A DNA stretch of 48,712 bases from Pseudanabaena sp. (lineage in GTDB: Bacteria > Cyanobacteriota > Cyanobacteriia > Pseudanabaenales > Pseudanabaenaceae). Both the position numbers and the translations under genes were made by a program. The notes under the pieces were generated by a model. The model did not search any database. It was not told the origin of the DNA and was given only the letters and a program-made list of their open reading frames with translations. The stretch is taken from positions 1-48,712 of the forward strand of contig QBMK01000005.1 in assembly GCA_003249035.1 (NCBI GenBank), in the 5' to 3' direction. Numbering within the stretch: position 1 is the stretch's first letter; every line of letters begins with the position of its first letter. Positions 2,882 to 48,712 of the stretch are shown in pieces.

Positions 2882-2900
2882 GAAAAGCTGTAAACAAAAG

Positions 2901-3000
2901 TTCAGATTGACGAAAGCGGAGAATGGTAAGAATCGCAAAGCGGTTCTTACCATTCTCCGACATTTGCGCTGTGCGGAGCACAGCGCAAATGTCGGTATCA
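2901..3000. repeat. double-hairpin element, copy 1
   Basis: Two adjacent hairpins are present: 2917-2959 (16-bp stem around a cgcaaagcg centre) and 2958-2994 (17-bp perfect stem, gga loop). A short closing pair, ttga with tcaa, flanks them. The 100 bases align without gaps to 48561-48660, and substitutions in the stems are compensated on the opposite arm. Confidence 0.88.
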
Positions 3001-3025
3001 AAACACTGTAAGGAATGATAATTTA

Positions 3026-3082
3026 ATAAAACCCAAAATTGGTTCGGCGGGCTTTGCCCGCCGAACCAATTTTGGGTTTTAT
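3026..3082. repeat. long hairpin, 27-bp perfect arms
   Basis: Arms at 3026-3052 and 3056-3082 pair perfectly around a ttt loop. The centre is ggcgggc/gcccgcc and the outer part carries the AAAACCCAA motif. It sits about 35 bases before the tadA start codon, so it is likely in the promoter or 5' leader of tadA. Confidence 0.9.
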
Positions 3083-3115
3083 ATGCACATGTTATGTAAT
3101 TTTCATTCCTAAACA

Positions 3116-17716: not shown

Positions 17717-17793
17717 TAGGACAAATCAAAATCCAAAAGATGAGTTGCGGCGCTTCGCGCCGCAACTCATCTTTTGGATTTTGATTTGTCCTA
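17717..17793. repeat. 36-bp perfect-arm hairpin
   Basis: This is the longest perfect hairpin in the window: arms 17717-17752 and 17758-17793, loop cttcg. The inner end is gcggcg/cgccgc, and the outer end AGGACAAATC matches bases 6064-6073 next to another element. Confidence 0.92.
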
Positions 17794-44870: not shown

Positions 44871-46919
44871 ATGGTAGTTCGTAGCTTTGCTGCCCCCCCT
44901 ACACCTTGGTCTAGGAATTTGGCAGAACCCAAAATTGATCCATCCGCCTACGTTCATTCTTTTTCCAATTTAATTGGCGACGTTTATATCGGCGCTAATG
45001 TTTTGATTTCACCTGGTACATCGATTCGTGCCGATGAGGGAAATCCATTTCATATTGGCAATAGTACTAACGTCCAAGATGGTGTAGTTATTCATGGTTT
45101 AGAGAAAGGTCGCGTGGTTGGCGACGACGGCAAAGAATATTCCGTCTGGATTGGTGATAGCACCTCAATCACTCATATGGCTCTGATCCATGGGCCTGCT
45201 TATGTTGGTAATAATTGCTTTATCGGGTTCCGCTCGACGGTATTTAATGCGCGAGTCGGAGACGGCTGCATTATTTCCTTACATGCTCTAGTCCAAGATG
45301 TAGAAATTCCTGCGGGTAAATATGTTCCTTCTGGTGCAGTGATTACAACGCAGCAACAAGCCGATCTGCTACCGAATGTTCGGGAGTCAGACCAGAACTT
45401 TGCGAGTCATGTTGTCGGTATCAACGAGTCCTTGAGACAAGGGTATCGCTGTGCTGCTGATATTGCCTGCATTACACCGATTCGCCAACAACAACAGAAC
45501 TCGCCACAACCAATCAGCAGATCTGCTGCAAGCGTTACTACGCAAATTAATACGCAAGATTTTAATCAGCCTAATCAGACCAAGATAAATTTTACAAGCA
45601 CAAATACAAACGCACAGAGGAACGAACCTATGAATGGGGATTTAGCGCAGCAAATACGACAACTTTTAGCTCAGGGCTACCATGTTGCGGCTGAGTACGC
45701 AGATGAGCGCCGATTCCGCACTGGATCTTGGCAATCCTGTGCAATTCCGCACACAACAGAAGCTTCGACAGTAATTGCAGCAGTACAATCTGCTCTTGTC
45801 GAAAATGAAGGCGACTATGTTCGTCTGTTTGGAGTTGATCCAAAAGCCAAGCGCCGCCTTGCTGAGACAATTATTCAACGCCCCAGCGATAAGCCTGTGG
45901 TAATCAGTAATGCAACCTCCAGTAATGGGTCTAGTAATGGCTATAGCGCACCCAAAGCAAGCTCCAATGGTGCTGCTAGTGCTGATATTTCTGGACAAGT
46001 GCGTCAACTGCTCGCTCAAGGCTATCGCATTAGTACTGAATTTGCTGATGCACGGCACTTCCGTTCTGGGTCTTGGGAAACTGGTCCAGCGATCGATGCT
46101 TCCAATGAATCTACTGTGATTGCTGCATTAAATACTATTCTTGCCGAGCATGAAGGCGAGTATGTGCGTCTGGTTGGAGTTGATACGAAGGCAAAACGCC
46201 GCGTAGTTGAAACCATCATTCAACGTGCCGATAGCCAAGCTGTGAGCATTGGTCAATCCAATGGAAATGGCTCTGCAAGCTATAGCGCTCCTCGCGCTAC
46301 CAATGGCAAGGGTGTTGCTAATGACATCTCCACGACAGTGGGTCAGCTTTTAGCTCAAGGTCATCGCATCAGTGTTGAACATGCTGATGAGCGTCATTTC
46401 CGTACAACTTCTTGGCAGACTCTGCCTGCTATTACGGCTAAACACGCACCAGCCGCGATCGCTGCTTTAGAAAATTACATTGCTGAATATAGTGATGAGT
46501 ATGTCCGTCTAGTCGGCGTTGATACCAAGGCAAAACGTCGCGTGGTAGAAGTGTTGGTTCATCGTCCAGGCGGTCAACCAATCACCGCAACTCGTACTGC
46601 GGTTAAAGTCAGCAACTCTAGCAATAGTTCCTATGGTGGTGGTGGTGCTGGCAAGATTAGCGCTGACATGATGTCACGCATCCGCCAACTCTTGTCTCAG
46701 GGCTATCGGATTGGTACTGAACATGCCGATGAGCGTCATTTCCGCACTAGTTCTTGGTTTAGCTGTTCACCGATCGCAGCATCAAATGAGTCTGAAGTAA
46801 TTCGTGCTTTAGAAGCTTGTTTGGCTGAGCATGGTGATGAGTATGTACGTTTGCTCGGTATTGACACCAAAGCAAAACGCCGCGTATTTGAAGGCATTAT
46901 CCATCGTCCTGCGAAATAG
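44871..46919 (+). CDS. ccmM: carboxysome assembly protein CcmM
   Basis: CcmM links Rubisco to the carboxysome shell. The N-terminal gamma-carbonic-anhydrase domain (residues 1-200) has all three zinc His at H75, H102 and H107, plus C194 and C200, the disulfide pair needed for activity in Thermosynechococcus, so it may be an active enzyme. Four Rubisco small-subunit-like (SSUL) repeats follow, starting near residues 255, 372, 485 and 599, joined by Ser/Asn-rich linkers. The frame is open from 44784, but the ATG at 44871 gives the numbering that matches the family (682 residues). An internal start at 45630 makes the short form. Confidence 0.95.
45614..45632 (+). promoter_or_regulatory. internal ribosome-binding site for short CcmM
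   Basis: AGAGGA followed at nine bases by the in-frame ATG at 45630 ([13 protein letters not shown]) is a good internal start. It would yield a 429-residue protein containing only the four SSUL repeats, equivalent to the CcmM35 form of Synechococcus, which condenses Rubisco. Confidence 0.8.
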
Positions 46920-48517: not shown

Positions 48518-48560
48518 TATATAAAGAAATTTATTGGTTCGCAGAGATCTCTAATCTAAC

Positions 48561-48666
48561 GTCAGTTCGACGAAAGCGAAAAGCGGTAAGAATCACTGCG
48601 TGATTCTTACCGCTTTTCGCCATTTGCGCCGTGCGAAGCACGGCGTAAATGGCTATATCGAACTTG
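48561..48666. repeat. double-hairpin element, copy 2
   Basis: Hairpin 1 centred near 48598 (cgaaaagcggtaagaatca with complement) and hairpin 2 (catttgcgccgtgc gaa gcacggcgtaaatg, one G-T) are enclosed by gttcga (48565-48570) and tcgaac (48658-48663). Ungapped match to 2901-3000. Confidence 0.9.
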
Positions 48667-48712
48667 CGTTAATCTAAGTGGCAAAAGATACTCCCTTCCC
48701 AGTGAATAATTA

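Follow-up and report, generated by a model that had tools for sequence, protein, structure and literature searches.

Matched base changes in a palindromic mobile element of Pseudanabaena most likely reflect DNA copying errors that mend arms and flip loops

Two related sequences in a 48,712-nucleotide stretch of Pseudanabaena DNA (contig QBMK01000005.1, positions 1-48712, referred to here as the window) are copies of a small mobile DNA element (MITE) of Pseudanabaena, and the matched base changes in their hairpins are most likely DNA copying errors at palindromes, in which arms are mended and loops flipped. Compensated pairs are the usual proof that an RNA fold is functional. They abound here in a mobile DNA element that bears no sign of RNA-type constraint and clear signs of template switching. 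We regard it as highly probable that the MITE is mobilised by an IS982-family transposase and that both the compensation and the loop flips come mainly from template switching.

The two copies (2898-3010 and 48558-48670) give an ungapped alignment, as the preliminary description had found over a slightly shorter stretch, with identity at 80 of 113 positions. Copy 2 is a complete 111-bp IS982-type MITE at 48559-48669 on the + strand, enclosed by the 7-bp target-site duplication TAATCTA at 48552-48558 and 48670-48676. Its left terminal inverted repeat, ACGTCAGTTCGA (48559-48570, + strand), forms one side of the outer stem, and the right one is TCGAACTTGCGT (48658-48669, + strand). Between them lie hairpin A (48576-48620, + strand), with 21-bp arms at 48576-48596 and 48600-48620 and the loop TGC, and hairpin B (48619-48653, + strand), with 16-bp arms at 48619-48634 and 48638-48653 and the loop GAA; the two overlap by 2 bases. 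Copy 1 (2899-3009, + strand) is an old MITE with decayed terminal repeats and no recognisable target duplication. Its hairpins A (2916-2960, + strand) and B (2959-2993, + strand) have the loops AAA and GGA, both different from those of copy 2. It is situated between divergent genes for a methionyl-tRNA-synthetase-like protein and a deaminase-domain protein, the latter presumably tadA-like, and is flanked by two further palindromes, at 2829-2881 and 3026-3082. The window holds 26 near-perfect hairpins (arms of at least 12 bp, loops of 3-8 bases), ie 5.3 per 10 kb, and at 17717-17793 there is a palindrome with 37-bp arms. At 45657-46907 four repeats of about 225 bases lie within a 711-aa open reading frame adjoining a hexapeptide-repeat gene; we take them to be perhaps CcmM small-subunit-like domains beside ccmN.

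Between copies 1 and 2 seven hairpin pairs are compensated, five of the 21 in stem A and two of the 16 in stem B, together with one in the outer stem. All four exchanges first described for stem A were recovered, and a fifth, G-C to A-T, adjoins the loop. The T-A to C-G exchange reported for stem B was also confirmed and is joined by an A-T to C-G exchange at the stem foot, while the T-A to C-G exchange of the closing stem was placed at alignment columns 11/103. One-sided changes are G.A to G-C at the foot of stem A and T.G to T-A in the same stem, both irregular in copy 1, and the previously noted G-C to G.T in stem B, which is irregular in copy 2. Folding of the two copies gave z values of -9.9 and -12.6 against shuffled sequences, with none of 200 shuffles equally good.

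A DNA search revealed that the genome has a third full copy, on its contig C57. A covariance model, the check proposed in the preliminary description, was built from the three copies of the window's genome, which score 129-139 bits; the next match in the genome scores 44 bits. Matches at E<=0.01 were found in 26 of 97 genomes, the window's own included. Twenty-four of these belong to the genus, for which 26 genomes were searched; the two outside it are G064 (E=0.005) and G074. The numbers of matches per genome are lower bounds, at most 37 candidates having been scored in each, and BLAST copy counts are too low because copy 2 as a query misses copy 1. Stem substitutions in the additional copies are mostly compensated. 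Exact end motifs, which are common to the MITE and an IS, number 409 in G022, 89 in G002 and 4 in the window's own genome. An exact left-end pattern was present in 17 named stretches; nine are from Pseudanabaena SR411, P. biceps, a Pseudanabaena bin and Phormidium tenue FACHB-1050, and the other eight are single matches in unrelated bacteria, none of which entered the 67- or 91-copy sets used below. Carriage by phage was considered and dropped, one exact left-end pattern having no match in viral contigs.

The MITE is 111-113 bp long and its terminal inverted repeats are 12-13 bp, with ACGTSAGTTCGA ends, which in copy 1 are decayed. An exact, flush 7-bp direct repeat surrounds 42 copies in a set of 67 (restricted to those of length 113 that match copy 2 at 75 or more positions), where 1.55 would be expected by chance, and a direct repeat of 6-9 bp surrounds 51. 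Both samples of paralogues are dominated by one genome, G022, which supplied 44 of the 67 copies and 49 of the 91. The duplications are A/T-rich, of the form TNNNNNA with the consensus TAAATTA, T being first in 38 of the 42 and A last in all 42; that of copy 3 is TAATTCA. The ends begin with 5'-AC (ACGTCAG) and are accompanied by a 7-bp duplication, as expected for an element mobilised by IS982. An earlier boundary, AACG... with a 5-bp duplication, gave way to ACG... and a duplication of 7 bp in view of the 5'-AC ends of IS982 elements. From these ends and duplications, and from the near-identical ends of an IS, the outer stem that had been described for copy 2 is the terminal repeat pair of a transposable element; the pairing is real, but in copy 1 it extends to only 5 of 13 positions, although all but one of the 37 hairpin pairs (36) are standard there. 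The aligned stretches contained no clean empty site for the MITE. At one orthologous locus the flanks occur in G005 without the MITE, but in a spacer that is otherwise different, and the two flanks of a second candidate are on different contigs. A genus search with the copy 2 locus returned MITE matches and gene pieces, and the spacer was not found. A different 100-bp MITE was seen in G025 (L249 16767-16866), with AGTAGTT...AACTACT ends, a TA duplication and an inner hairpin; comparison of G025 L249 with G023 L251 shows that only one of the two genomes has the element at this site, which is vacant in its counterpart. Another abundant Pseudanabaena repeat, of about 118 bp, occurs at L198 330-446 and in over 30 places in G005.

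The probable source of the transposase is an IS of about 1005 bp with nearly the same ends as the MITE (identical over 13 bases on the right and at 12 of 13 on the left) and a shared preference for targets: five of seven IS copies with MITE-like ends carry 7-8 bp T...A duplications, the other two being decayed. Its 303-aa protein matches NF033520, the IS982 transposase, at E=1.7e-75. Full-length open copies are present in G002, G005, G017, G022 and G023. The copy in the window's own genome (L147 499-1504) has three TGA codons and one TAG in its longest match, and in view of these stops the MITEs of that genome may be stranded. The MITE would thus be a non-autonomous element of about 111 bp, moved in trans by the DDE transposase of this IS982-family partner.

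Sister MITEs of 147 bp and 104 bp have ends resembling AACGTSAGTTCGGG, and their hairpins are wholly unlike those above. Their counterpart is a second IS982 subgroup, which has the same ends (L173, L174 and L176) and in which all three copies have 6-8 bp repeats, again of the T...A form. In another family, G074 has a 124-bp double-hairpin form and an 82-bp single-hairpin form, some with direct repeats. These elements with IS982-type ends and unrelated inner hairpins, double or single, are found at L102 3375, L117 1115, L097 31 and L129 5172 and 13329. The double hairpin is thus a layout that recurs from element to element, although the sequences that form it are unrelated.

The covariation of the two copies extends to the family. 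In 25 distinct copies, hand-picked to be diverse, two-sided changes affect 18 of 35 pairs, a result equalled by none of 500 shuffles, and shifting the pairing partner leaves at most six two-sided pairs. The compensation claimed at the outset is therefore well beyond chance, and with the very stable predicted folds of both copies it is what would be expected if the element were transcribed and its double hairpin acted as a structured RNA. Half-changed pairs offer a test of that reading, one that is blind if both strands act as RNA. They were counted at 87 insertion sites, each aligning without gaps and matching one of two references at 70 or more of 113 positions, and comprised 36 G.T, 33 A.C and 62 other half-changes; a manual count of the 49 G022 sites alone gave 9, 9 and 21, and the overlapping 67-copy set 12, 17 and 12. 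Since G.T half-changes are about as frequent as A.C, there is no wobble preference, and the lean suggested by the single + strand wobble pair in each of copies 1 and 2 is absent in the larger set. No Rfam family matched the window at gathering score. Three sub-threshold matches, two to miRNA families and one to an sRNA family, are far under their gathering scores and were put down to chance and long hairpins; one of them, at 2959-3083, overlaps part of copy 1 (32 bits against 97). The dispersal of many copies with target duplications, the interchange of loops with their reverse complements and the like behaviour of other palindromes, both described below, also speak against an RNA fold, and selection for one is very unlikely to be the explanation. 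Among G022 copies the change per site is 0.030 in stems and 0.065 in unpaired parts, a difference that both arm correction and selection predict.

The loops are less easily accommodated by selection on a fold. In copies 2 and 3, from the same genome, both are exactly reversed, TGC to GCA in hairpin A and GAA to TTC in hairpin B. At the 87 sites the B loop is GAA in 42, TTC in 28, AAA in 6, TTT in 3 and something else in 8, and the A loop is TAA in 54, TTA in 17 and another sequence in 16, although the TAA/TTA change requires one substitution only. The states of the two loops combine freely in the 67-copy set. Even where the B arms are identical, in 26 copies from G022, 16 loops are GAA, 7 TTC, 2 TTT and 1 AAA. 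One insertion is shared by G005 and G011, with flanks identical at 40 of 40 bases on each side; its B loop reads GAA in one genome but TTC in its counterpart, between B arms that are unchanged. With such flanks the loop must have changed in place and was not chosen among source copies. Four orthologous MITE pairs comprise one three-base flip, one TTA/TAA change of one base and two pairs without loop change. The loop states GAC/GTC and CGG/CCG in G074 differ by one base and were excluded from the flips, and that listing mixes reading directions.

Flipping is a property of palindromes in general. G025 and G023 were aligned over 202 kb and are 0.67% apart outside hairpins; hairpins were chosen in one genome of each pair, which biases the sample toward those perfect there. 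Of 84 hairpins (arms of at least 12 bp, loops of 3-8 bases), 61 have the same loop, three of these being self-complementary, 20 have it exactly reverse-complemented and 3 are otherwise changed, where point changes alone predict 2.2 loop changes. Three or more bases are involved in 17 of the flips and one base in 3, and the reversed loops are up to 6 bases long. The frequency depends on arm length: 0 of 113 hairpins with arms of 7-9 bp and 1 of 42 with arms of 10-11 bp are reversed, followed, in classes of rising length, by 3/25, 4/13, 5/17, 5/18 and 3/8. An IS982-type end lies within 70 bases of only 3 of the 20 flips, so that 17 belong to other palindromes. At the 6.5% divergence of G005 and G011, six of 16 hairpins are reversed (one by a single base), three otherwise changed and seven the same. 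Twenty-one comparisons between genomes 11-22% apart gave 3 the same, 2 reversed, 11 otherwise changed and 5 with loop gaps, and at that distance the signal is buried; one of the two reversals is in a gapped hairpin and the other, TTC/GAA, is between G002 and G023. That such varied hairpins flip in place between orthologues suggests a mechanism of DNA copying.

The flips are read from assemblies, several of them many-contig drafts, and G025 is probably a metagenome bin, a setting in which misassembly at palindromes could produce both flipped loops and perfect arms. However, the arms measure 13-24 bp in 17 of the 20 flipped hairpins, less than what we take to be the usual assembly word size, and only 1 of the 155 hairpins with arms of 7-11 bp is reversed. 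Both loop states also occur inside the six-contig genome G022, and the TTC/GAA reversal between the single-contig genomes G002 and G023 is one of six hairpins compared there. We consider an artefact extremely improbable. A site-specific or homologous inversion system acting on palindromes outside replication is scarcely more credible. It would account for one flip that is an exact inversion of a 16-bp block, carrying its mismatch along (G.G becoming C.C), but the flipped palindromes have no obvious common sequence by eye, and spacers of 3-6 bases give ordinary recombination between duplex arms little space.

Selection for the folded form of the DNA deserves more weight. If cruciforms or single-strand hairpins were needed for transposition or replication, broken copies would not be propagated, and this would suit the symmetry of G.U and A.C, the change of stems at half the rate of unpaired parts, and the unrelated hairpin pairs at the same position in sister MITEs (147 bp in Pseudanabaena, 124 bp in the other family). 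Yet copy 1, a dead copy with decayed ends, has kept its hairpins, which fits slow arm-to-arm correction; single-hairpin forms of 104 and 82 bp exist; and three intact-looking copies of the IS have no hairpin with arms of at least 9 bp and loops of 3-8 bases. Nor are loop flips predicted. In the ungapped hairpins of G025 and G023 12 of 1512 arm pairs have changed on one side and 2 on both, ie 16 changes in 3024 sites or 0.53% against 0.67% outside. Arm changes are thus near background, and broken pairs are hardly purged at this divergence. We judge DNA-fold selection possible but unlikely as the main cause. The preliminary description had offered selection on the fold, or a mobility mechanism that needs the hairpins. 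Mobility is borne out by the terminal repeats, target duplications and IS982-family partner; a need for hairpins is not, and the wobble counts, copy 1, the arm changes and the flips together do not favour selection as the main cause.

The argument that drift would break pairs overlooks the possibility that the arms of a palindrome template each other. The interior of the MITE is made up of two tandem perfect palindromes, and a Ripley-type template switch during replication, in which one arm serves as template for the other, would yield compensated changes and so keep them perfect. The inter-strand form of the same switch would turn the loop into its own reverse complement. We infer that the flips are such switches and that the same process made most of the compensation. 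The share of double changes rises from 2 of 14 at 0.67% to 3 of 11 at 6.5% and 9 of 28 in the distant pairs pooled, all small counts. One case (a difference between GT and AT) would be compatible with an arm change and a loop flip in a single event. Visible arm correction is much rarer than flipping, and one-step compensation was not caught in bulk.

Near-perfect palindromes with arms of at least 12 bp are 8 to 12 times denser in Pseudanabaena (3.6-5.7 per 10 kb) than in E. coli (0.5). E. coli K-12 and REL606 (143.5 kb, 0.83% apart) show no flips in 142 informative hairpins with arms of at least 7 bp; only six of these have arms of at least 12 bp, and we therefore make no claim that Pseudanabaena is exceptional in this process. 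Loss of SbcCD as a cause of stable palindromes was rejected, SbcD, the one subunit searched for, being present in 26 of 26 genomes. We incline to the view that continual palindrome copying in Pseudanabaena, which by 0.7% divergence has inverted about a quarter of the perfect palindromes whose arms exceed some 12 bp, is enough by itself to yield RNA-style covariation in a mobile element devoid of RNA function. If true, palindromic DNA can give rise to false structured RNAs, a caution for covariation-based RNA discovery.

Both the MITE family and the frequency of flips in natural bacterial genomes are new here; the best-ranked matches in a largely open-access literature include no account of the element or of cyanobacterial loop flipping. 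The main text of PMC7335449, on the IS982 family, likewise contains neither 'MITE' nor 'Pseudanabaena'. According to that text the ends of 57 of 69 IS982 elements start with 5'-AC, and the partner IS shares with the family its length of about 1 kb, such ends, a DDE transposase and variable direct repeats, whereas the MITE itself has no gene. The IS-derived prokaryotic MITEs treated in the relevant parts of PMC10969869, eg cyanobacterial Nezha, resemble the present one in being short, with terminal inverted repeats, a target duplication, A/T-rich intergenic targets and transcripts predicted to fold back. The present element differs in its interior of two separate perfect hairpins and in its IS982 ends, the named cyanobacterial MITEs being compared by description rather than sequence. 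It resembles the REP, BIME and REPIN sequences, as portrayed in the sections of PMC3733652 concerned, in being a dispersed intergenic palindrome, but its terminal repeats, its 7-bp duplications and its DDE partner set it apart, and no GTAG or CGTC tag was noticed by eye at the feet of its stems. The flip pattern between close genomes appears to match the footprints of quasi-palindrome template switching, as set out in the pertinent sections of PMC8604942 and PMC8794818, in exact reverse-complement spacers, an arm-length threshold and reversibility, and may do so in arm homogenisation. In yeast that footprint consists of arm homogenisation with spacer inversion, inversions occurring only with arms over 9 bp, and ten spacer inversions are given for coding genes (PMC8604942); 69 loop-only inversions are given for a large rRNA set (PMC8794818). 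The role of template switching in stem maintenance is described there as less clear, the strongest evidence being circumstantial (PMC8794818), and it could be measured directly on the non-coding palindromes in which closely related Pseudanabaena genomes are rich. In contrast to the cases in those two sources, as far as their sections on inversions extend, about a quarter of long palindromes are flipped here at 0.67% divergence, and the same process would explain the covariation of a mobile element.
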